Shown piece after piece: positions 10,723-26,597 of a stretch of DNA of 64,000 nt; position 1 is the first letter of the stretch; every line of letters begins with the position of its first letter. The notes under the pieces were generated by a model. That model saw only the letters and a program-made list of their open reading frames with translations. It searched no databases and had not been told where the DNA came from. The position numbers and the translations under genes are program-made. The stretch is from contig NZ_AUIJ01000001.1 in assembly GCF_000423645.1 (NCBI RefSeq), positions 124,001 through 188,000 of the forward strand, written 5' to 3'. The stretch comes from Sediminimonas qiaohouensis DSM 21189. Its GTDB lineage: Bacteria > Pseudomonadota > Alphaproteobacteria > Rhodobacterales > Rhodobacteraceae.

Positions 10723-11193
10723 ATGCCGGGACCGGATGAAAATGATCAATTAGACCGGATTGATCGCAAGATTCTCAGGGTGCTGAGCACCGACGGAAGG
10801 ATCGCGGTCACCGACCTTGCCAAACAGGTAGGGCTATCCAAGAGCCCCTGCCAGGTTCGGATGAAAAAGCTGCAGGCGCAGGGGTACATCCAGGGGTTTC
10901 GCGCCGTTCTCAACCCCGAGAAACTGGGTCTGGAGCATGTGACCTTTGTCGAAGTGCGTCTGACCGACACGACCGAGACCGCGCTGGAGGATTTCAACCG
11001 CGCGGTGATGGACGTGCCCGAGATCGAGCAATGCCACATGATCGCCGGCTCGTTCGATTACCTGCTCAAGATCCGCACCACCGACATCCACAGCTACCGG
11101 CAGACGCTGGGCGATGCGATATCGAATCTGCCGCATGTCGGCTCAACCTCGACGCATGTGTCGATGCAGGCGGTGAAGGACACCGCGTTCTAA
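10723..11193 (+). CDS. putR: PutR, Lrp/AsnC-family proline-responsive regulator
   Basis: A 156-aa protein. The N-terminal winged HTH reads DRIDRKILRVLSTDGRIAVTDLAKQVGLSKSPCQVRMKKL. The C-terminal RAM ligand domain includes IEQCHMIAGSFDYLLKIRTTD, a typical Lrp effector-binding segment. It is divergent from putA with a 123-base shared gap, the classic arrangement for the proline-sensing activator PutR of alphaproteobacteria. A role in activating putA is inferred from the family and the neighbourhood. Confidence 0.9.
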   Translation: MPGPDENDQLDRIDRKILRVLSTDGRIAVTDLAKQVGLSKSPCQVRMKKLQAQGYIQGFRAVLNPEKLGLEHVTFVEVRLTDTTETALEDFNRAVMDVPEIEQCHMIAGSFDYLLKIRTTDIHSYRQTLGDAISNLPHVGSTSTHVSMQAVKDTAF

Positions 11194-11199
11194 GCCAGC

Positions 11200-12327
11200 T
11201 TAGCGTATCACGCCATCGCCGCGCAGCCGGGCGACGTCGTCCGCGTCCATGTTCAGGCCTTGCAGAATGCTGTCGGCGTCGCCTCCCGGCGCGCGCGGCG
11301 GTGCGGGCGCGCCGGGCGGCGTGCGGTCGAACCGCGGCGCCGGTGCGGCCTGCATCACGCCGCCGACCCGGGTAAAGGTGCCGCGCGCGGCGTTGTGGGG
11401 GTGCTGCTCGACCTCGTCCCAATCCAGAACCGGCGCGACGCAGGCATCGGTTCCGTCGAAAATCTCAATCCATTCGTCGCGCGTTTTGCGGGCAAACACC
11501 TGCGCATAGAGCGCGCGGCGATCGGCCCACGTGGCGCGGTCGTTCTGATCCTCCAGATGCTCGGGCGGCAGGCCGGCAAGGCGCACCAGTTCGGCAAAGA
11601 ACTGCGGCTCCAGCGGGCCGACGGAAATCGCGCGCCCGTCGCGCGTGGCATAGCAGCGATAGAACGGCGCGCCGCCATCCAGTAGGTTGTTCTCGCGCTC
11701 TTTCGTCCAATCGCCGCGGGCAAGCCACTGATGAATAAGCCCCATCATGGCCGGCACCCCGTCGACCATGGCCGCATCCACCACCTGCCCCTGCCCCGAG
11801 CGGGACCGCTCAAACAGGGCCGAGAGTACGCCAAGCAGCAGGAACATCGACCCGCCGCCGTAATCCGCCACCAGGTTAAGCGGCGGCACCGGCACGTCAT
11901 CGGCGCGCCCCATGGCGCCAAGGGCCCCAGACAATGACAGGTAGTTGAGGTCATGCCCGGCGGTCATCGCAAGCGGGCCCTCCTGCCCCCAGCCCGTCAT
12001 GCGGCCAAACACCAGGCCGGGGTTTTCCGCGTGGCAATCGGCCGGGCCGAGGCCCAGCTTTTCCATCACGCCGGGGCGGAACCCCTCGATAACAATATCG
12101 GCGTTCGCGATCAGGTCCCGCGCCAGCGCCAGCCCCTCCTGCGCCTTGAGGTTCAGCGCGATCGAGCGCTTGCCGCGCCGGTTGACATCGGTCGTGTCGG
12201 CCGGGGCCGAAGCCCTGTCGATCACCACGACATCCGCCCCCAGATCGGCCAGCAACTGCCCCGCCAGCGGGCACGGCCCAAGGCCTGCCATCTCTATCAC
12301 CTTCAACCCATCAAGTGGACCAGCCAT
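11200..12327 (-). CDS. Alpha-methylacyl-CoA racemase (CaiB/BaiF family III CoA-transferase fold)
   Basis: A 375-aa protein. The opening MAGPLDGLKVIEMAGLGP with LLADLGADVVVIDR is the family III CoA-transferase start. The racemase branch rather than a transferase is favoured by AGHDLNYLSLSGAL (catalytic histidine), NLVADYGGGSMFL (aspartate) and the downstream glutamate in PLEPQFFAEL. These three positions match the His/Asp/Glu set described for mycobacterial MCR. It would invert 2-methylacyl-CoA stereochemistry so that branched chains can enter beta-oxidation. The C-terminus contains a proline/alanine-rich stretch. It is convergent with putR (6-base gap), divergent from selD, and has no obvious operon partner. 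Confidence 0.85.
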   Translation of the reverse strand: MAGPLDGLKVIEMAGLGPCPLAGQLLADLGADVVVIDRASAPADTTDVNRRGKRSIALNLKAQEGLALARDLIANADIVIEGFRPGVMEKLGLGPADCHAENPGLVFGRMTGWGQEGPLAMTAGHDLNYLSLSGALGAMGRADDVPVPPLNLVADYGGGSMFLLLGVLSALFERSRSGQGQVVDAAMVDGVPAMMGLIHQWLARGDWTKERENNLLDGGAPFYRCYATRDGRAISVGPLEPQFFAELVRLAGLPPEHLEDQNDRATWADRRALYAQVFARKTRDEWIEIFDGTDACVAPVLDWDEVEQHPHNAARGTFTRVGGVMQAAPAPRFDRTPPGAPAPPRAPGGDADSILQGLNMDADDVARLRGDGVIR

Positions 12328-18332: not shown

Positions 18333-18441
18333 TTTTCATCCCTCGCTGCGGTGGCTGTTGGCGGCCACCCTGCCCCGCGGATGCAGGACAGGGCAAGGTG
18401 TGCGAGGGTGTGGGCGCGCGCGGTGCCTTTTGTCCGCGCGG

Positions 18442-18457
18442 AAAAAAGGCGCGAAAC
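18442..18457 (-). terminator. Left half of an intrinsic terminator split by the Mu-like element
   Basis: Removing the element and one copy of the target duplication rejoins GGCGC-GAAAC-GCGCC preceded by six A. Read on the minus strand this is a GGCGCG stem, TTT loop, CGCGCC stem and six T, a textbook rho-independent terminator for leftward transcription (from the dnaE direction). The other half lies at 26409-26418. In the present arrangement the hairpin is broken. Confidence 0.65.
18453..18457 (+). repeat. Target-site duplication, left copy (GAAAC)
   Basis: The five bases immediately outside the left TG terminus are GAAAC, identical and in the same orientation as the five bases outside the right CA terminus at 26409-26413. 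Five base pairs is the duplication length made by Mu transposase. Confidence 0.9.
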
Positions 18458-18464
18458 TGACGGC

Positions 18465-18479
18465 TTTCAGCGGGTTTGA
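18465..18479 (+). repeat. Left-end transposase site L1
   Basis: TTTCAGCGGGTTTGA, seven bases inside the TG terminus. It matches the right-end motif (TTTCACCGGGTTTGA read inward) at 14 of 15 positions. It is inferred to be the MuA-type binding site next to the cleavage point. Confidence 0.8.
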
Positions 18480-18529
18480 GCCAGTTGAAAAATTTTTCAT
18501 ATACTTTTCAGGTAGTTAATCTGGGACGA

Positions 18530-18544
18530 TTTCACGGGGTTTGA
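18530..18544 (+). repeat. Left-end transposase site L2
   Basis: TTTCACGGGGTTTGA, same orientation as L1 and starting 65 bases after it. The shared GAGCC(A/G)GT continuation extends the similarity to about 22 bases. A spaced L1/L2 pair mirrors the left end of phage Mu. Confidence 0.8.
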
Positions 18545-18664
18545 GCCGGTGCGTGCGCCTATCGCCCTCTGGTGACAGTTGACACGGAAGTTTGCAGAAA
18601 AAAATCCAATGAAATCAAGCGCTCGCTTTCTAAGGTGTGGGGAGATTTGCCCACACCCCACAGC

Positions 18665-19177
18665 TTATTTGGGCAGTCGCCATTCGGGGGTTGTTGAGAA
18701 TGCACCCGAAGTATTCAGTCTGCGGATATCCCTCTCAAGCGAAGCCTGTGGGTCTGCGAGGTCTTCGTAGATCGCGGTGGACAGGGCGGTGTGCAGCGGT
18801 TGTTCGTACGCTGCCAGATCGCGCTGACAAAAGTCCTGCAATATCCAAATGTCGGGCGCGGCCAGCCCCGAGAAATAGGTCAACGTCTCGACGTAGTTGC
18901 TCAGATTAGCTTTCTCCTTCATTATCCGCGAAAAGCGGAAGAGCGCGAGATCGAATGCAGCCTTTTCATGCTCGCTCCACTTGATCGGCGAAACACCTAC
19001 CGTCGAGCTGGAAGAGCCTTCCAAGATGCCCTGATACCGCACTGGGATGCTATCCCGCGCCTTCCAAGAAGAGATCGTGCTCTTGTCTACGCGCAGCTTG
19101 CGCGCCAGATCGGCATCCGTTTCCACACCGAAGTGCCGTTTCAAAGCTGCAAGGACTTCCTCAACCGGGCGTTCCAC
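18665..19177 (-). CDS. Phage repressor, CI-like helix-turn-helix protein (Mu c position)
   Basis: A 170-aa protein. The N-terminal HTH reads FGVETDADLARKLRVDKSTISSWKARDSIPVRY, as in the phage CI repressor HTH family. The remainder (about residues 60-170) is helical with no recognised domain. It starts with GTG at 19177, preceded by AGAGG. It diverges from the Ner-like and transposase genes with a 51-base gap containing a palindrome, so it is expected to silence the early operon, as c does in Mu. A GGTGTGGG/CCCACACC stem at 18634-18657, just beyond its stop, could end its transcript. Confidence 0.8.
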   Translation of the reverse strand: MERPVEEVLAALKRHFGVETDADLARKLRVDKSTISSWKARDSIPVRYQGILEGSSSSTVGVSPIKWSEHEKAAFDLALFRFSRIMKEKANLSNYVETLTYFSGLAAPDIWILQDFCQRDLAAYEQPLHTALSTAIYEDLADPQASLERDIRRLNTSGAFSTTPEWRLPK

Positions 19178-19188
19178 ACCAGTACCTC

Positions 19189-19217
19189 TTGACTGCGTTA
19201 TGCGGTTGGCATAGTTT
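19189..19217 (+). promoter_or_regulatory. Candidate early promoter of the Mu-like element
   Basis: TTGACT at 19189-19194 is followed after 17 bases by TAGTTT at 19212-19217, a plausible -35/-10 pair reading into the Ner-like gene. The -10 lies inside the palindrome at 19209-19232, so a protein bound there would block it. Confidence 0.45.
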
Positions 19218-19232
19218 GCATGTAAACTATGC
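19209..19232. promoter_or_regulatory. 24-bp palindromic operator between repressor and Ner-like gene
   Basis: The half-sites GCATAGTTT and AAACTATGC flank a short centre; 11 of 12 base pairs of the symmetric 24-mer match, with one mismatched pair near the centre. It lies exactly between the divergent repressor and Ner-like genes and overlaps the predicted -10 and the first possible ATG of the Ner-like gene. It is the obvious candidate operator for either regulator. Confidence 0.75.
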
Positions 19233-19453
19233 AGGCCGCAGAGATGATAGACCTATCGCATACACCATCGCCCGAATTATTGAAAGCCGTCCGCGCAGCT
19301 CTGCTGCTCAGGGATCAATCGCTTACGGGGTGGGCACGCGCCAACGGGGTCAAGCGTCAGAACCTCTGCAAGGCGCTCACCGGTCAGTGGACTGGACCCA
19401 GAGCGGGCGCGATTGTGAAGCAGGTGCGCGCCGATCTGAAGGTTGAACACTGA
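19229..19453 (+). CDS. Ner-like small DNA-binding protein
   Basis: A 74-aa protein with one predicted HTH (SLTGWARANGVKRQNLCKALTGQWTGP). Position between the c-type repressor and transposase, size and HTH fit Mu Ner, which represses early transcription to steer the lytic/lysogenic choice. The first ATG (19229) lies inside the operator palindrome. An in-frame ATG at 19244 (MIDLSHTPSP) would give a more usual leader from the predicted promoter, and neither has a strong ribosome site. Its stop overlaps the transposase start (TGATG). Sequence identity to Ner itself is not evident. Confidence 0.7.
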   Translation: MQAAEMIDLSHTPSPELLKAVRAALLLRDQSLTGWARANGVKRQNLCKALTGQWTGPRAGAIVKQVRADLKVEH

Positions 19454-21399
19454 TGTTGGTCGCGGTCAGATCGCTGCAAGGGGTCGGGAAGATCCCATGC
19501 GACCGTACATCAGCCTCAAAATGGCTTGCGCGCAAAGGGGTCCCGATACTTAGCCAGTGCGGCAACGGTGGTACGTTCGATGCTGTTCGCACATCTGACC
19601 TACCTGACGAAGAGCGTCTCGCTTTCCATCGGAAGCGTATTTCGGAGCTTCACCTTTGCCCAGGCACCTACGACGATGATGCCCATGACGTGTTCATGCA
19701 GGCGTCCCCGTCGCGGCGGGCAAGGGCTGAACGCAAGGCCGCTATTGCGCAGCTTCTGGTGTCGTTGGGGACTTCGGTCGGTTGGCCTGAGCGTATCCGG
19801 CTGGTGCAGGAGAAATTCGGGGATGAAGGCACCTCGAAACCCTCCTTGAAACGGCTTTTAAGCGCGGTCGAAGGGGCCGATCCGATCAACTATGCGCCCG
19901 CGCTGCTGGACGGCTACAAGGCGACGGCAAGGCATGCGGAGATGAGCGAAGACGCGTGGCGTTTTTTCATGACGACAATCCGCGATGCAGGCCCGGATTT
20001 TCCGCTAAAGTCGGCGTGGCGCGACACTCGGGATGCTGGTCGGTTCTTGGGGTGGTTGGTCCCGTCATACCCCACGTTTTATCGTCGCTGGGAGGCATTG
20101 AGCGAAGCTGAGCGCCTACACGCGCGGTATGGGCGCGATGCGACACATACCCGCCTAGTGCAACCTTCGCACCGCGACAAGAGCAGTCTTCCGCCCCTTG
20201 CTTGGGTTTCGCTGGACGGGCGAGTGCAGGACTTCTGGGTTGATTTCGGAGACGGCAAGCCGGTGCGTCCTGTCATGCTGGCCCTTGTCGATGTGGGTTC
20301 CAACATCGTTCTGGGGTGGGAGCTGGCCCCCTCCGAGAACGCCGCGCGAACGGTGCGGCTCATCAAGAATGTCTGTCAACGACATGGCATCTTCGACCGA
20401 CTATACACCGATAACGGATCTGCCTTCGCGGGCCACCTCGTTGCTGGCGGCAACGTGCATAGGTTCAGGAACGGGCGAAAAAAGGCCGAAGGCGTGCAAC
20501 CCCCCGGTATTTGTCAGATCATGGGTATCGACCTGACCTTCGCCCTACCCAAGAATGCCCAAGCGAAGATCGCCGAGCGAACTTTCGCCGTGCTTTCCCG
20601 CGTGATTGATGACAGACCGGAATTCAAGGGGTGCCACGCGGGCCATGCCCCTGGGGCCACCCCGACGCCGGGCGTGAATCCGGTGCCTGTCGAAGTCGCG
20701 CAATCCGTGATTAGGCGAGAAATTCAACGCCACAATCAGGAGCCTGGGCGGCGCAGTCAAGGAGCGCGCGGTCGGTCCTACGAACAGGTATTCAATGATG
20801 GGCTACAAGATCGCATCAAGCGGCAACCTACGGCGCGGCAGCTCTATCTTGCGGGCCTGATCTATAGCCCCGTGTCAGTCGATAGGTTCGGCCAGGTTCG
20901 CAAGAACGGCTGGATTTACGGTGGCCCTTCCACGCAACAGGCAATGCTGGAGCACCACGGCACGGGTAGGAAAATCCTGTTGGGCCGTGATCCTGACGAT
21001 TTCAGCGCACCGGCCATCGCGTTTGACGAAGACGGGCGCTTGATCTGCGAGAACATCGAGCCGGTGCAGTCGGGTTCGTATGGAAGCGTTGACGGCATTC
21101 GTGATGCGGCGCGTAACCGGAAGGCGGCTCGGGCCGCAGTCGCCGCCGCCGAGACGGCGAACAACTATTTGGATGACGCACAATTCGCGAACGCTCTGGC
21201 CGCCTTGGATCAGAGCGTGGCGTCGCCCGAGGAGCCGGACCGCCCTGCGCAGAGAGTGGTTGCGGGGCATTTCGGATCGCCCCTCACGGACGCGCCCGCC
21301 GCCGAGGAAACCGCCGACGAAGCTATCCCGGCTGAGTTTTACAGGAACATGGATACCGCGCTTGCGGCCAAGCGGTCGCGGGGCGGGAAGTCGGCATGA
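19453..21399 (+). CDS. MuA-type DDE transposase
   Basis: A 648-aa protein, close to the 663 aa of phage Mu A. The catalytic core is readable: first aspartate in WVSLDGRVQDF (residue about 254), second in YTDNGSAFAGH (about 320), glutamate in KIAERTFAVL (about 375). The spacing is very like the D269/D336/E392 triad of MuA. The N-terminus (VRSLQGVGKIPCDRTSASKWLARKG) resembles the Mu-type DNA-binding region that contacts end sites. A C-terminal region rich in alanine and acidic residues could contact MuB. It would carry out strand transfer using the 18465/18530 and 26364/26387 sites. The reading frame is intact. Confidence 0.93.
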   Translation: MLVAVRSLQGVGKIPCDRTSASKWLARKGVPILSQCGNGGTFDAVRTSDLPDEERLAFHRKRISELHLCPGTYDDDAHDVFMQASPSRRARAERKAAIAQLLVSLGTSVGWPERIRLVQEKFGDEGTSKPSLKRLLSAVEGADPINYAPALLDGYKATARHAEMSEDAWRFFMTTIRDAGPDFPLKSAWRDTRDAGRFLGWLVPSYPTFYRRWEALSEAERLHARYGRDATHTRLVQPSHRDKSSLPPLAWVSLDGRVQDFWVDFGDGKPVRPVMLALVDVGSNIVLGWELAPSENAARTVRLIKNVCQRHGIFDRLYTDNGSAFAGHLVAGGNVHRFRNGRKKAEGVQPPGICQIMGIDLTFALPKNAQAKIAERTFAVLSRVIDDRPEFKGCHAGHAPGATPTPGVNPVPVEVAQSVIRREIQRHNQEPGRRSQGARGRSYEQVFNDGLQDRIKRQPTARQLYLAGLIYSPVSVDRFGQVRKNGWIYGGPSTQQAMLEHHGTGRKILLGRDPDDFSAPAIAFDEDGRLICENIEPVQSGSYGSVDGIRDAARNRKAARAAVAAAETANNYLDDAQFANALAALDQSVASPEEPDRPAQRVVAGHFGSPLTDAPAAEETADEAIPAEFYRNMDTALAAKRSRGGKSA

Positions 21400-21467
21400 G
21401 AGGCGCTGAACCACCTCTCATGCCATTCACCGGGGGCGAATAACCCCCACAACGAACGGAGCAATGA

Positions 21468-22244
21468 ATGACACAGCATTTGAGACTTGCCAAGACCAGC
21501 GATGCCAGGCGGCGTCTGGGCGACTGGGCCGACACTGAAACCGCCCGCGACATTATCCGATCCCTCGATCTGGTCTATGAGACGGATCGCCCGTCCATGA
21601 CGATGATCGCTGGCGCGCCTGGTGTAGGAAAAACCAGGGCGATCAGGCGTTTTTGCGAGCGGATCGGCCATGACGGCATCTATATTCAGGCTGCCAGCGG
21701 TGAAGGAACCGCATGGAACTTCGCTCACTCCCTGGGCAACCTCTGGGGGCACGCCAAGCCCCAATTTTCCTGCCATACTGAGGCTCGCCAGGAAATCGCA
21801 CGCTACATCGGCACGGGGCGCGTGTTGATCGTTGATGAGGCGCAGTACCTCAATCAGCGCAACAAGAAGACCGGGCAAGTTGGTGAGGCGTTCGAGTGGC
21901 TTCGCGCCGCCGCTGAGGCTGGTGAATTCAAGTTGGTGTTTTGCGGCGATATGAGCCTCGCGCCCGCTATAGACAGCATGCCGCAGCTCCAAAGCCGAAT
22001 GATGCGCCCCGTCATCATTCCTTCGGCGCGCAGGGTGGATGTGGCCGGTATCGTTAAGGGTACGCCCTTCGACAATGAGGCGTCAATCGACGCGCTACAC
22101 GCCGTCGCGCGCCTGAAGGGCGGTTTGCGTAACGTCGAAAACGTCACGAGGATTGCCCTACTTTTCGCAGGGTCTGAGCACCCGCGCGCGGAGCACCTCA
22201 AGGCAGCCATCCATGACATGAAACTCGCACCGAAGGGGCGCTAA
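21468..22244 (+). CDS. MuB-like AAA+ ATPase, target-DNA selector
   Basis: A 258-aa protein with Walker A in MIAGAPGVGKTRAI (residues about 47-60) and Walker B in VLIVDEAQYLNQRN (about residue 125), followed by a sensor region FCGDMSLAP. It follows the MuA-type transposase, as B does in Mu and as TniB/IstB-like ATPases do in related elements. It would bind target DNA, stimulate the transposase and confer immunity on sites near the ends. Mu B is 312 aa, so this is a shorter form. A ribosome site (GGAG) precedes the ATG. The 68-base gap after muA holds a small GGGGG/CCCCC hairpin. Confidence 0.88.
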   Translation: MTQHLRLAKTSDARRRLGDWADTETARDIIRSLDLVYETDRPSMTMIAGAPGVGKTRAIRRFCERIGHDGIYIQAASGEGTAWNFAHSLGNLWGHAKPQFSCHTEARQEIARYIGTGRVLIVDEAQYLNQRNKKTGQVGEAFEWLRAAAEAGEFKLVFCGDMSLAPAIDSMPQLQSRMMRPVIIPSARRVDVAGIVKGTPFDNEASIDALHAVARLKGGLRNVENVTRIALLFAGSEHPRAEHLKAAIHDMKLAPKGR

Positions 22245-22246
22245 GT

Positions 22247-22552
22247 ATGAAGACGGTATACGTGAAACTCAAGGACGATGAAGCGGCGCTGATGATCGAC
22301 GGGACGCCTGTAGAATTCATGGAACTCAAGCGCGCAATGGCTGATCTGGAAGGCATGCTTGAAGCGCTGGGGGATGCGAGTGCTCTGGCCGCGTTTCAGG
22401 CCATTGGTGAAATGGTCGCGCGCGCCCGAGTGGTGAACTGTGAGCCGCTTGATCCCGACCGCTCGGGCGAACGCGGCAACTCGCATGGGGCCGAAAGCAA
22501 CGGCCCTCAGCGACATTTCCGAAACACGCGGCAAGGGGAATTCGACGCATGA
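22247..22552 (+). CDS. Hypothetical early-region protein of the Mu-like element
   Basis: A 101-aa protein starting 3 bases after the muB-like stop. The N-terminal 65 residues are mixed alpha/beta (VKLKDDEAALMIDGTPVEF, then a helix MELKRAMADLEGMLEAL). The C-terminal third is polar and low in structure. There is no recognisable family. It lies in the semi-essential early region of Mu-like phages and ends in an ATGA overlap with the next gene, so it is part of the same transcript. Confidence 0.6.
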   Translation: MKTVYVKLKDDEAALMIDGTPVEFMELKRAMADLEGMLEALGDASALAAFQAIGEMVARARVVNCEPLDPDRSGERGNSHGAESNGPQRHFRNTRQGEFDA

Positions 22553-22917
22553 AACAGATGGAAACGGACCGCGAATTCAAGACGAGAATGGCCGCAGAAG
22601 GGAAGGCCATCTACACCCCCGGCAAGACGGTCGAGCAGGTCAAGGCCGATCTTCGTGGGGAAAAACTGACCCTTGAAATCCACGAAGGCGACTTGAAACA
22701 GATGCGTGAAGATGCGCAGGAAGTCGAGGGCACGCTTTTCTGTATCAGCCAAGCGGCGGAGTACCTGTCCAGGACCGCAACCGAACAATGCCCTGGCATG
22801 GGCGCTGTCTTGGAACTTCTGGGCCGCGCCACCAACCTTGACGCCGCCCCCTGCGCTTCCCGGCTGATTGCCGCGCTTCGCAACCTAGACGCCGTCGAGA
22901 AAAAGGGGCGGTCATGA
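22549..22917 (+). CDS. Hypothetical early-region protein of the Mu-like element
   Basis: A 122-aa protein with a charged N-terminal half (EFKTRMAAEGKAIYTPGKTVEQVKADLRGE) and a more helical C-terminal half with five cysteines and several alanine runs. There is no signal peptide or membrane segment. It is coupled at both ends by ATGA overlaps, to the 101-aa gene upstream and to the GemA gene downstream. I do not recognise a family. Confidence 0.6.
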   Translation: MKQMETDREFKTRMAAEGKAIYTPGKTVEQVKADLRGEKLTLEIHEGDLKQMREDAQEVEGTLFCISQAAEYLSRTATEQCPGMGAVLELLGRATNLDAAPCASRLIAALRNLDAVEKKGRS

Positions 22918-23324
22918 CCATCACGCGCAATCAGATCGCCCTTCTGCATGTTGCCAAGGGCAAGCTCGGCCTCAAGGACGCTGAGTATCGAACGGCGCTT
23001 GTCCACATCTGCGGTGTGACAAGCTCGACCGAGCTGGATCAGTACGGCTTCGAGGCGCTTTTGGGGTTCTTCGAACACCTGGGCTTCAAGCCCCTCTCGT
23101 CTCGCGGTTCGGACTACGGTGCGCGCCCTGGCATGGCGAGTTTCGCGCAGCTCGAATTGATCCGGGCGCTGTGGCGCGAATACACGGAAGGCCGTGCCGG
23201 GGAAGACGAACTGAACAAATGGCTTGAGCGATGCTGGAAGGTTTCGAGTCTTCGGTTCGTGCGCGCCGAAACTGCCCCCAAGATCATCACGGCGCTGAAG
23301 TCGATGAAGGCGCGGGCGGCATGA
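22914..23324 (+). CDS. GemA / Mu gp16-family regulatory protein
   Basis: A 136-aa protein with the gp16/GemA (DUF1018) pattern: the opening ITRNQIALLHVAKGKLGLKDAEYRTAL, followed by SFAQLELIRALWREY and a C-terminal RFVRAETAPKIITALK. In Mu, GemA modulates host gene expression and DNA supercoiling, and it sits at the end of the early operon, as here. A strong intrinsic terminator follows within 35 bases, closing the early transcript. Confidence 0.8.
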   Translation: MTITRNQIALLHVAKGKLGLKDAEYRTALVHICGVTSSTELDQYGFEALLGFFEHLGFKPLSSRGSDYGARPGMASFAQLELIRALWREYTEGRAGEDELNKWLERCWKVSSLRFVRAETAPKIITALKSMKARAA

Positions 23325-23357
23325 GATAGCCGGGGGTTTCAGCCTTGTCCCTCGGCT

Positions 23358-23401
23358 GGAAGGGGCGGCGGTTTGCAGGTCCGTCGCCCCTTCCGCTTTT
23401 T
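23358..23401 (+). terminator. Rho-independent terminator of the early operon
   Basis: The 14-bp stem GGAAGGGGCGGCGG / CCGTCGCCCCTTCC has one mismatch and a 9-base loop. It is followed by GC and five T. It lies 33 bases after the GemA stop. Confidence 0.85.
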
Positions 23402-23628
23402 CAGAGCGCCTGAGCGGCCCGTACAGCGCCGTTGATCGCTTTGGCCCCCATTTCCCGCAAATGGTCGGCATGGCTATTAAATGGGTATTTAACGGCGCTC
23501 TGCGAGCCTACCGCGCCCGACAGGCGGGAAACCCTTGCGCAAACGGCCCGAATTTGTGACTGTCTGAGAAACGGTCTGGTGCCTCGCGTGGAACCTGCGC
23601 CTCGAATTCTTTCTAGGCCGAAAGACAT
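23401..23628 (-). CDS. Possible small minus-strand gene inside the Mu-like element
   Basis: A 75-aa open frame opposite to the element's other middle genes. The last 50 residues (starting QIRAVCARVSRLSGAVGS and ending in alanine-rich MGAKAINGAVRAAQAL) look protein-like and use GC-rich third positions. The first 24 do not, so the true start may be internal. Its stop abuts the T-run of the early terminator, an arrangement expected for a convergent gene. The alternative is that the 328-base stretch 23325-23652 is simply a promoter region for the Mor-like gene. No family is recognised. Confidence 0.35.
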   Translation of the reverse strand: MSFGLERIRGAGSTRGTRPFLRQSQIRAVCARVSRLSGAVGSQSAVKYPFNSHADHLREMGAKAINGAVRAAQAL

Positions 23629-23652
23629 TCAGGGTTGCGCTAGAACGAGCGC

Positions 23653-24096
23653 ATGACCGGAACGCCGCCCCGAGACCTTCCAGCACCGACTTGCTCCGAG
23701 GCATACGCCATCGGCGTTTACATCCCACCGCACTTGCTTTCTATCGAGCGGACGGTCGGAGTGGAGCCGTTGCGTGCATTTCTGGAAGAATGGGGCGGTC
23801 GGGAATTCGGTATCCCCACCACTGTCACAGCGGACACGCCGCATACCGAGGTTGTCGATGCCTTGCGGGCGCAATTTGGACCGGGGCGCTTCACGATTGC
23901 CGTTGGGCCGCTGGGGTCGAATGTGCGGGTCGCCTGGTCTGTCTACCTGGGCCTCAAGAACGGCATGTCTCTGGCCGATATTGCCAGGCAATGCGGCTGT
24001 CACGCCCGGACAGTTTCCGGGCACAAAAAGCGCCTGATGGATCGCGGCCTTTTGAGCGCGACCGAGGCTTCCACCCCGAAAGGAACTGCGAAATGA
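23653..24096 (+). CDS. Mor-like transcriptional activator
   Basis: A 147-aa protein with a central strand-rich part (GGREFGIPTT, GRFTIAVGPLGS) and a C-terminal HTH (YLGLKNGMSLADIARQCGCHARTVSGHKKRL). In Mu, Mor is made from the middle region after the early terminator and switches on later genes. Size, position (after GemA and a terminator, before head genes) and HTH placement fit, though the match is by architecture rather than strong motif identity. Its stop overlaps the head gene start as ATGA. Confidence 0.6.
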   Translation: MTGTPPRDLPAPTCSEAYAIGVYIPPHLLSIERTVGVEPLRAFLEEWGGREFGIPTTVTADTPHTEVVDALRAQFGPGRFTIAVGPLGSNVRVAWSVYLGLKNGMSLADIARQCGCHARTVSGHKKRLMDRGLLSATEASTPKGTAK

Positions 24097-24989
24097 TCGT
24101 GAATGCGGAAAGTATCGAGCTGGCCTTCAAGGGCTTCAAGACGGTGTACACCGACGCCTACGAGGCGGCAACGGCATATTCTGGCCAGATCGCGATGACG
24201 GTGCCAAGCTCTTCGCGCGATGAAACCTACGGGTGGCTCGGGCAGTTTCCGCAGCTTCGCGAGTGGCTTGGGGGCGACCGGGTTGTCAAAGACCTTCAGG
24301 CCCACAGCTTCGCGATCACCAACCGGAAATTCGAAAGCACGGTTGGCGTCAGCCGCGATGACTTCGAGGATGACAGGCTGGGCATTTTCAAGCCCATGTT
24401 CGCGGAGATGGGCCACCTCGCGAAGTTGCACCCCGACGAGCTGGTGTTCGGCCTCCTGAAGGACGGCTTCACCACGACCTGTTTCGACGGGCAGTACTTC
24501 TTCGACATCGACCACCCGACAAAGGACGCGACCGGTGCGGATGTGACCGTGAGCAATATGGCCGACGGCACCGAGACACCCTGGTATCTTCTGGACACCT
24601 CGCGCGCTATCAAACCGATGGTGTTCCAAGAGCGGAGCAAGTACGATTTCCAGGCGGTCACGGCACCGAGCGACCACACTGTGTTCATGACCGATCAGCA
24701 CCTCTACGGTGTTCGGGCGCGGGTGAACGCCGGACTTGGGTTGTGGCATATGGCTTTCGGCTCGAAGCAGGCGCTGACTGCGGCAAACTACGCCGCCGCG
24801 CGCGCAGCCATGCAGGAATTCCGGGGCGACAGTGGGCGCGTTCTGGGCATCAAGCCGACCGTCATGGTTGTGCCGCCGTCGCTTGAAGACGCCGCGATGC
24901 ACGTGCTCAACACCGAAACCAACGACGGCGGCGGCTCGAACCCTTGGAAGGGCACCTGCGACCTGATCGTAACGCCGTTCGTGGCATGA
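24093..24989 (+). CDS. Mu T-family major head subunit
   Basis: A 298-aa protein, close to the ~305 aa of Mu gpT. The T family's central block is present: WYLLDTSRAIKPMVFQERSK, then VFMTDQHLYGVRARVNAGLGLWHMAFGSK. Further family features are FFDIDHPTKD and the C-terminal GSNPWKGTCDLIVTPF. It forms the icosahedral capsid shell. The whole length is present with no frameshift. It is coupled by ATGA to the Mor-like gene before it and the protease gene after it. In Mu the protease/scaffold gene precedes T; here it follows. Confidence 0.92.
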   Translation: MIVNAESIELAFKGFKTVYTDAYEAATAYSGQIAMTVPSSSRDETYGWLGQFPQLREWLGGDRVVKDLQAHSFAITNRKFESTVGVSRDDFEDDRLGIFKPMFAEMGHLAKLHPDELVFGLLKDGFTTTCFDGQYFFDIDHPTKDATGADVTVSNMADGTETPWYLLDTSRAIKPMVFQERSKYDFQAVTAPSDHTVFMTDQHLYGVRARVNAGLGLWHMAFGSKQALTAANYAAARAAMQEFRGDSGRVLGIKPTVMVVPPSLEDAAMHVLNTETNDGGGSNPWKGTCDLIVTPFVA

Positions 24990-25894
24990 CGGATCAGCCG
25001 ATCATATCGCTTTGTGAGGGAGCGCCCCTGGCCGAGGGGCGCGCACCCGATCTGGTCCATCTTCTTCCTTTAGGGGAAATCAAGGGGCGGGATGGTCGGC
25101 GCTGGACCCTCTCCGACGCAAACGCGCTGGTGCGCGCTTCGATGCGCGAGGGGGTTGATCTGGTTATCGACTATGAGCACCAGGTTGACGACCCAGATCA
25201 GCGTACGCCCGGCCCGGTGCCTGCCGCCGGGTGGGTTCGTGACCTTACGGTGAAGTCCGATGGTATCTGGGGTCGCGTGGTATGGACGCAGAAGGCGCGT
25301 AACATGATCGAGGCGCGTGAATACCGCTACCTCAGCCCGGTCATCACGCACCGTCGCGACGGTCAGATCATCCGCCTCAAGGGGGCAAGTCTCGTACATC
25401 GTCCCAATCTCGAACTCACCGCCCTGTCACGTCAGGAGGAAACCATGCCCGAACTTGAAAACGACATTGGCCGCATCGCTACTGCGCTCGACCTGCCCGA
25501 GGATGCCGGAACCGATCAAATTCTTGACGCCATCCGGGCTTTGTCCCAAGAGCCTGACCCGAGCCGATATGTGCCGGTGGCGGCGGTCCAGGAGATGCTC
25601 CGCGACCGCGCATCGCTTCAATCCGAACTTGGCGAGCAACATGTCGAGCGCCGTGTAGACGAGGCCACGGCAGGCGGGTACATCACGCCGGGCATGCGCG
25701 ACTGGGCCGTGTCTCTTTGCAGACGCGACCCGGATGCCTTCGAAGACTTTCTATCCACCACGCCGCCCGCCTTCGCGCACCTTTCGCGTGACACTGCGGC
25801 CGGTCAATTGCCGACCAAGCGCGTGGCCGCGCGCAGCGACGTAACCGAAAGCATCTGTGCACAACTGGGTATCTCTCCCGATGCGCTCGACTGA
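24986..25894 (+). CDS. Mu I-type head maturation protease with scaffold C-terminus
   Basis: A 302-aa protein. Residues about 1-150 are the Mu I-type prohead protease: WTLSDANALVRASMREGVDLVIDYEHQ (probable catalytic histidine), PAAGWVRDL, EAREYRYLSPVI (probable serine) and LTALSRQEE at the domain end. The C-terminal half is helical and charged, like the scaffold (Z) part of Mu I. An internal ribosome site and ATG at 25445 would produce the scaffold alone. The start is the ATG overlapping the T stop. The protease would process the prohead assembled around the scaffold. Confidence 0.85.
   Translation: MTDQPIISLCEGAPLAEGRAPDLVHLLPLGEIKGRDGRRWTLSDANALVRASMREGVDLVIDYEHQVDDPDQRTPGPVPAAGWVRDLTVKSDGIWGRVVWTQKARNMIEAREYRYLSPVITHRRDGQIIRLKGASLVHRPNLELTALSRQEETMPELENDIGRIATALDLPEDAGTDQILDAIRALSQEPDPSRYVPVAAVQEMLRDRASLQSELGEQHVERRVDEATAGGYITPGMRDWAVSLCRRDPDAFEDFLSTTPPAFAHLSRDTAAGQLPTKRVAARSDVTESICAQLGISPDALD
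25445..25894 (+). CDS. Internal-start scaffold protein (Mu Z-like), nested in the protease gene
   Basis: AGGAGG at 25435-25440 lies four bases before an in-frame ATG at 25445, giving a 149-aa product (MPELENDIGRIATALDLP...). The site falls exactly at the junction between the protease domain and the scaffold region. In phage Mu, Z is made in this way from within I. Expression as a separate protein is inferred. Confidence 0.65.
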   Translation: MPELENDIGRIATALDLPEDAGTDQILDAIRALSQEPDPSRYVPVAAVQEMLRDRASLQSELGEQHVERRVDEATAGGYITPGMRDWAVSLCRRDPDAFEDFLSTTPPAFAHLSRDTAAGQLPTKRVAARSDVTESICAQLGISPDALD

Positions 25895-26336
25895 CCAGCC
25901 AGCGTCGGACCGCGAAATTGCTCTCGCGGATCAGCTACGCCAGGCGAAGGAGCAAATCGACAGTGCGAACCGCCTGTTTGACGAGGGCTTAAACGCCGTT
26001 TCAATGGCGCGTGAAACGGTTGCCGAATGCGCGCGGCTGGCGTCCGATCAGTCTCTTTCGGAGGGTGTGCTGGCGTCAGCGCCTGTTACGGAGCACCGCC
26101 GTCTACGCCGCTCGGGGTGCCCTCCGAAAATCGACCAAGACCCCGCGTTGCAAACCTTCATTCTGGCGCGGCTCGACCGCCTGACATACCAGGAAATTGC
26201 CGATGAAATCGCGGCGGCTTTCCCCGAGGATCGGCGTGTGAGCAAGAGCACCGTTCACGCTTGGCACAAGCGCCGCCGAAAAGCCCCAAGGTTCACGCGG
26301 TCACGCCGGTCTCGCCAAGTGGATCATCCGGGATAG
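25881..26336 (+). CDS. Helix-turn-helix protein at the right end of the Mu-like element
   Basis: 151 aa from the ATG at 25881, or 159 aa from a GTG at 25857; both overlap the protease gene. The N-terminus is coiled-coil-like (REIALADQLRQAKEQIDSANRLFDEGL). A C-terminal HTH reads FILARLDRLTYQEIADEIAAAF, then RRVSKSTVHAWHKRRRKA, and ends in a basic tail. The layout (HTH with the SKSTVHAW recognition helix) is reminiscent of Mu-type small terminase subunits, but it could equally be a regulator. No large terminase is present. It is the last gene before the right end (72 bases remain). Confidence 0.6.
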   Translation: MRSTDQPASDREIALADQLRQAKEQIDSANRLFDEGLNAVSMARETVAECARLASDQSLSEGVLASAPVTEHRRLRRSGCPPKIDQDPALQTFILARLDRLTYQEIADEIAAAFPEDRRVSKSTVHAWHKRRRKAPRFTRSRRSRQVDHPG

Positions 26337-26363
26337 CCCCGGTACACCCGCCCACTTCCGGGT

Positions 26364-26378
26364 TCAAACCCGGTGAAA
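26364..26378 (-). repeat. Right-end transposase site R2
   Basis: TCAAACCCGGTGAAA on the plus strand, i.e. TTTCACCGGGTTTGA read inward from the right end. It is identical to R1 and starts 23 bases from it, about two helical turns, as for the adjacent R1-R2 sites of Mu. Confidence 0.8.
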
Positions 26379-26386
26379 CGGGGGTA

Positions 26387-26401
26387 TCAAACCCGGTGAA
26401 A
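26387..26401 (-). repeat. Right-end transposase site R1
   Basis: The same 15-mer as R2, with its outer edge seven bases from the CA terminus at 26407-26408. This is the same offset as L1 from the TG terminus. Confidence 0.82.
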
Positions 26402-26408
26402 ACTAACA

Positions 26409-26413
26409 GAAAC
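26409..26413 (+). repeat. Target-site duplication, right copy (GAAAC)
   Basis: Direct repeat of 18453-18457, immediately outside the right terminus. The next bases, GCGCC, are the right half of the interrupted terminator stem. The remaining 184 bases to slyX contain GC-rich sequence and presumably the slyX promoter; no gene is seen there. Confidence 0.9.
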
Positions 26414-26597
26414 GCGCCGCCGCGCAGCACCCGACCGCCCCCCCCCTCGGGCGGGGAACTGCGCGGCTCTTCAGGCGGGCGCGTGCCTGATTGCTCTTGC
26501 TTTTCGGCGCTCTGCAACCCAGTTTCACGGCACTGGGAGTTGGCATCGCTGTCGCCCCGGCGGTAAAGATCATATTCCGGCGAAAAATGGAATTTGC

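Follow-up and report, generated by a model that had tools for sequence, protein, structure and literature searches.

Small Mu-type transposable elements with their own capsid genes, probable phage satellites

A 7,951-bp element in the 64,000-nt stretch of Sediminimonas qiaohouensis DSM 21189 DNA analysed here (the window) belongs to what is almost certainly a naturally small, mobile, capsid-encoding Mu-type family. Judged from its sequence, the window element is probably a Mu-type transposing, capsid-encoding phage satellite that is packaged with the help of a larger phage. It is the capsid and protease pair that gives it the look of a satellite rather than of a stripped transposon.

Ends and extent of the element

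Direct reading of the sequence places the window element at 18458–26408 (plus strand), where it opens with TGACGGC at 18458 and closes with ACTAACA at 26408. An earlier note on this DNA had given its length as 7,951 bp, with TG...CA termini, a 7-nt offset to the first transposase site at each end and a GAAAC duplication, and all of these held to the base. The motif TTTCA[C/G]CGGGTTTGA starts 7 nt inside each terminus. The terminal features are as follows.

18453–18457, no strand: 5-bp target duplication GAAAC, left copy (direct sequence)
18465–18479, plus strand: end site L1, TTTCAGCGGGTTTGA, 7 nt from the left terminus (ends aligned in relatives)
18530–18544, plus strand: end site L2, TTTCACGGGGTTTGA (sequence; spacing recurs in relatives)
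26364–26378, minus strand: end site R2 (sequence; aligned in relatives)
26387–26401, minus strand: end site R1, TTTCACCGGGTTTGA, 7 nt from the right terminus (aligned in relatives)
26409–26413, no strand: 5-bp target duplication GAAAC, right copy (direct sequence)

The L1–L2 spacing (65 nt in the window element, 64–65 nt overall) and the R1–R2 spacing (23 nt) are repeated in relatives in which both sites are matched, and the ends of relatives align with those of the window element. With these recurring spacings and aligned ends, the site pattern is far beyond chance. TG...CA ends, repeated A-binding-type sites and a 5-bp duplication are together those of a Mu-type transposable element.

A transposition module followed by head genes

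The 11 genes of the window element were scanned with Pfam and PHROG profiles, with the following assignments.

18665–19177, minus strand: c repressor, 170 aa, phage CI HTH (Pfam PF07022, E 4.1e-6)
19229–19453, plus strand: Ner-like HTH, 74 aa (phrog_15281, E 3.9e-9; phrog_925, HTH DNA binding, E 3.7e-4)
19453–21399, plus strand: Mu-type transposase A, 648 aa (PF02914, E 6.4e-15; PF09039, E 1.9e-8; phrog_310, E 1.4e-77)
21468–22244, plus strand: transposition ATPase B, 258 aa (PF09077 Phage-MuB_C, E 1.6e-10; PF13401, E 1.9e-13)
22247–22552, plus strand: small ORF, no Pfam or PHROG family; weakly matched by tblastn in one other element
22549–22917, plus strand: small ORF with a short KxxxAAEGKAxYxPGKT-like stretch near its start, also found in several relatives
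22914–23324, plus strand: GemA (Mu gp16-like), 136 aa (PF06252, E 5.6e-25)
23653–24096, plus strand: Mor-like late activator, 147 aa (phrog_836, E 1.7e-8)
24093–24989, plus strand: major capsid protein, Mu gpT type, 298 aa (PF10124, E 5.8e-126; phrog_371, E 2.6e-116)
24986–25894, plus strand: head maturation protease/scaffold, Mu gpI type, 302 aa (PF10123, E 8e-71; phrog_328, E 8.3e-74)
25881–26336, plus strand: terminal HTH protein o11, 151 aa, position conserved in delimited relatives

The repressor, Ner-like, transposase, ATPase and activator genes that the earlier note listed are all open; its list passed over gpT, gpI, GemA and the terminal HTH protein. A Mu A family DDE transposase and a MuB ATPase are both present, as in the Mu transposition module, and residues D255, D320 and E375 of transposase A, invariant in 12 homologues (alignment A2), are its probable DDE triad. 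The gene of the relative L028 at the position equivalent to the Mor-like activator matches Pfam Mor (PF08765, E 4.6e-8). The His (DYEH motif) and Ser (SP motif) of the gpI protease appear conserved when the alignment is inspected by eye, catalysis being a prediction only. Profile scans of the 11 genes found no terminase large subunit, portal or tail genes, and the window element is without the full virion set (large terminase, portal, tail, lysis) of an autonomous Mu-like phage.

The terminal protein o11 has a long N-terminal helix and a C-terminal HTH (AF2, pLDDT 85). It matches the small-terminase family phrog_426 at E 0.0024, with 4 of 16 members below 0.1, and is small-terminase-like at best. 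Its assignment as a small terminase was rejected, as weak profile matches stood alone, with no significant fold match and no phage homologue by tblastn. When the o11 profile was run over 385 class-level genomes, only the window's own genome matched among the best 10 candidates per genome.

Relatives in many genera are also small

The transposase was matched in 16 of 395 genomes of the same bacterial family. Eighteen stretches around transposase matches were retrieved, and more relatives were added from genome-collection matches: single-sequence scans with A gave no match in the genome and viral collections, and alignment A2 as query retrieved relatives from both where the single A had failed. 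Sixteen elements could be bounded at both ends: the window element and 15 others, which occupy distinct sites in genomes of various genera, mostly Rhodobacterales. Their lengths are 7951, 8263, 8892, 8173, 9102, 8301, 8621, 7952, 8527, 8272, 6716, 7496, 8128, 9274, 8233 and 10815 bp, a range of 6.7–9.3 kb without insertion sequences (IS), the 10815-bp element carrying an inserted IS. Perfect 5-bp duplications, differing in sequence, flank 14 of the 16 (13 of the 15 besides the window's). L030 and L077 have no duplication and carry inverted GGGGGC...GCCCCC hairpins on both flanks, which suggests that their junctions are rearrangements between two target palindromes. The gene order c-ner-A-B-gemA-T-I-HTH holds in most relatives, and their gaps contain no unassigned ORF approaching portal or TerL size, tape-measure and IS genes set aside.

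The earlier note had named internal gene loss and natural smallness as alternatives without deciding between them, and had proposed searching related genomes for the end motif and comparing lengths. Conserved ends were found, and since the 15 relatives, spread over different genera and insertion sites, have a similar length and the same end architecture, the window element is naturally small. A and B, acting with the end sites, have transposed the element to new places, with 5-bp duplications, and the wide occurrence across genera implies horizontal transfer. Pairs of relatives have dN/dS values of 0.08–0.50, indicating purifying selection.

IS insertions or frameshifts have decayed several copies (L037, L034 and L050–L052). 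One genome holds several related small-element copies (L037, L050, L051 and L052), all of them disrupted by insertions or deletions. L041 (3874–6463) is a 2.6-kb internal deletion derivative that keeps both end motifs and has no matching duplications, and L026 (10001–10476), on the Paracoccus pantotrophus plasmid pPAN2, is an unannotated remnant that shares 63.5% identity with a section of the transposase. In L028, a 245-aa ORF between o11 and the right end (11079–11816 in oriented locus coordinates) is possible cargo; it matches phrog_17296 alone, a family of unknown function (E 1.3e-10).

These observations bear on the idea of a plain cut-down Mu-type transposon in which the virion genes are carried along and serve no function today. 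Transposition by itself accounts for the target-site duplications and the copies, and decayed copies would be expected of such an element; yet dN/dS is low, the T and I frames are intact across deep divergence, and virion genes have repeatedly been retained at the same place. We regard this explanation as quite improbable.

Insertion into palindromes

The window element lies within a repeat that is dispersed in its host.

18436–18457, plus strand: insertion target, dispersed palindromic repeat GCGCGGAAAAAAGGCGCG[AAA]CGCGCCGCCGCGC, left half (repeat copies aligned)
26414–26455, plus strand: same dispersed repeat, right half (repeat copies aligned)

When the two flanks were joined into a 1200-nt query, positions 579–642, spanning the junction at 600, gave dispersed matches in three congeneric genomes, and the bulk of the remainder matched the syntenic locus only. 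The aligned repeat copies form a stem-loop with the window insertion in its apical loop. At the syntenic locus, the flank halves are separated by about 125 bp of a single contig in one congener (G001) and by about 660 bp in another (G002), the interior being absent from both. The prospect raised by the earlier note, that the end sequences might be fixed flanks in related genomes, thereby falls away, as the two congeners hold the flanks without the interior, an empty site. The dispersed repeat is about 65 bp long and comprises two stem-loops, with T-rich sequence after the second in many copies (L139–L156); the flank query matches 27 times in the genome that carries the element and 20 times in one congener, mostly to this repeat. 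Rfam returned nothing useful at the insertion site.

Other insertions resemble this one. Rejoined flanks fold as palindromes at or next to the insertion, for example GGCGCG[AAA]CGCGCC in the window and GGGGGC[AGA]GCCCCC at L032. A palindrome score of at least 18 was reached at 8 of the 14 duplication-bearing sites, a level that 4.2% of background positions within these loci attain; the binomial p of about 2.5e-8 is descriptive, as the score was devised after the first sites had been seen and insertions in genes are selected against. The L032 site belongs to a repeat with at least 40 copies dispersed through its genome, and similar repeats occur in four of five other genomes searched, with a single match in the fifth. 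At L028 there are few partial matches only, so not every insertion site is a dispersed repeat. Together, these results show that insertion prefers palindromes, at their centre or edge, and that these are often dispersed REP-like repeats. IS1397 and ISPpu9 are IS elements that insert into REP/BIME palindromes, and the window element is like them in sitting in the loop of a dispersed extragenic palindrome; those are single-transposase elements, whereas here a Mu-type A/B pair is accompanied by virion genes.

The same mobility bears on whether the elements are GTA-like, or carry a domesticated capsid kept by the host. GTAs are known from the bacterial group of these hosts, and the capsid genes are under purifying selection. 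Against this, the elements occupy differing sites rather than a fixed locus and have perfect target-site duplications, and the window element's locus is empty in congeners, all of which marks them as mobile; portal and large terminase are absent. A host-kept capsid is therefore highly improbable.

Order and phylogeny of the head genes

The head genes run T-I in the small elements and I-T in all full-length Mu-like prophages tested. In a tree of 55 gpT proteins, whose full-length side includes prophages, Mu, RC1 and Fc02, 26 T-I rows and 26 I-T rows require a single change of order, and none of 500 shuffles was as low. The main small-element clade (26 rows, support 99/96) holds all but two of the small-element rows. 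The deepest branch, at the T-I/I-T split, is weakly supported (60/20). No full-length phage has a close A, phage-collection matches reaching at most about 31% identity.

That the element arose by deletion from a full-length Mu-like phage would agree with the homology of its genes to Mu genes and with the existence of deletion derivatives in the family, such as the 2.6-kb L041. The independent 6.7–9.3-kb relatives with one gene order, the T-I order and separate capsid placement that set them apart from all full-length prophages tested, the distance of A from its closest phage-collection match and the purifying selection all oppose it. We consider this origin largely refuted, and scarcely credible for the window element.

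Modular variants

The structural genes vary among members. In L053, L054 and L055, the gemA-mor-T-I-o11 block stands beside a different transposase and ATPase, which gave no tblastn match to the window's A and B; the ends of these three elements were not located by a search for 5-bp duplications. A decoration-like gene lies between T and I in L030 and L158 and before T in L032, where it matches phrog_1731 (E 8e-44), and a gpG/Neck1-like gene (PF05069, E 3e-25) is found in L030, L031, L040 and L157. L098 and the viral contig L070 keep T and have a tape-measure gene in the position of I, and L043 has a tape-measure gene with T and I undetected. These tape-measure genes (627–700 aa) match two different profile families (phrog E 5e-61 and 5e-105).

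L043 6826–8709: tape-measure gene
L098 15367–17250: tape-measure gene
L070 6597–8699: tape-measure gene

Such variation could also be expected of an anti-phage transposon, in which the capsid, protease, neck or tape-measure proteins would poison the assembly of an invading phage and so protect the host, and the element itself would not be packaged. A tape-measure protein without detected head genes, as in L043, could interfere although it would be unable to enclose DNA. The structural set differs from member to member, and purifying selection is compatible with either role; staphylococcal islands, by analogy, redirect assembly with capsid homologues. However, capsid, protease, late activator and terminal HTH protein, present together in most members, exceed what a poison needs, and occurrence in many genera implies horizontal transfer. 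We judge an anti-phage role without packaging unlikely; it is compatible with a satellite role, and the two are not mutually exclusive.

Candidate helpers and viral contigs

Mu-type portal genes were found in 51 of the 395 genomes of the same bacterial family: in 8 of 23 with small elements or remnants and in 43 of 372 others (odds ratio 4.1, p 0.005). The lambda-type portal, taken as a control and found in 141 of 395, was likewise enriched (14 of 23 against 127 of 372; odds ratio 3.0, p 0.013), so the co-occurrence is not specific to a Mu-like helper. The window's own genome contains no Mu-type portal. Because of this and of the enriched control, we claim no specific helper.

Five IMG/VR contigs carry such elements, several with host flanks. 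The contig of L070 ends exactly at the right terminus (9157) and has a 116-bp flank on the left. A virion origin of these contigs was considered and set aside: the contig end of L158 resembles host DNA and L157 has non-element sequence past o11, and for that reason the contigs are not used as evidence of packaging.

Comparison with known systems

The window element is like Mu and Mu-like phages (Mu, D108, SfMu, Rhodobacter phage RC1 and Rhodovulum phage RS1) in its DDE transposase A, MuB-type ATPase, Ner-like protein, repressor, GemA, Mor-type activator, gpT/gpI, TG...CA ends and 5-bp duplications. It is unlike them in length (8 kb against 37–40 kb), in having no large terminase, portal or tail set, and, as described above, in head-gene order and transposase sequence. 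Among satellites it resembles cfPICIs, as a small mobile element with its own capsid genes (gpT, gpI) and a presumed need of a helper to complete the particle. cfPICIs are a PICI-related family reported primarily from Enterobacteriaceae and Firmicutes-type hosts (PMC10803314). The window element differs from them in that Mu A/B replaces the integrase, neither large terminase nor portal is present, and a PICI-type module for integration and packaging is lacking. P4-like, PICI/SaPI, PLE and PICMI satellites share with it a small size, an own repressor and presumed helper dependence; PICMIs, which are marine, are among the smallest satellites and have no capsid remodelling genes (PMC10803314). 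The accessible part of a 2024 review names P4-like, PICI, cfPICI, PLE, PICMI, VEIME and tycheposon families and describes no Mu-type transposing satellite (PMC11389934). In the open-licence literature, we found no description of a Mu-like or transposable satellite family.

A model for a transposing satellite

If the window element is a satellite, we suggest that growth of a larger phage in its host would derepress it, and that it would then replicate by transposition. Its own Mor-like activator would switch on the late genes, and the element's gpT and gpI would form the proheads; portal, large terminase, tail and lysis would come from the helper. The terminal HTH protein o11 may steer packaging towards element DNA. 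Scaling by volume from a 38-kb head of T=7, we estimate that an 8–9-kb element with its flanks would fit a head of T=3 or T=4. Variants with a decoration, neck or tape-measure protein may alter the helper particle in other ways, and remodelling of the tail by the tape-measure variants is speculative. A wider generalization, which we offer only tentatively, is that Mu-type satellites of about 8 kb target dispersed palindromes, each supply a few virion proteins and rebuild the helper particle, tail included.

If this reading is true, the family would represent a new mode of satellite mobilisation, with no fixed attachment site and potentially many copies, and a natural case of capsid genes separated from portal and terminase. 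Its tape-measure variants would point to possible satellite control over tail length, and it would offer a palindrome-preferring Mu-type transposase. It would also explain some Mu gpT/gpI annotations in Rhodobacterales that are otherwise filed as broken prophages.
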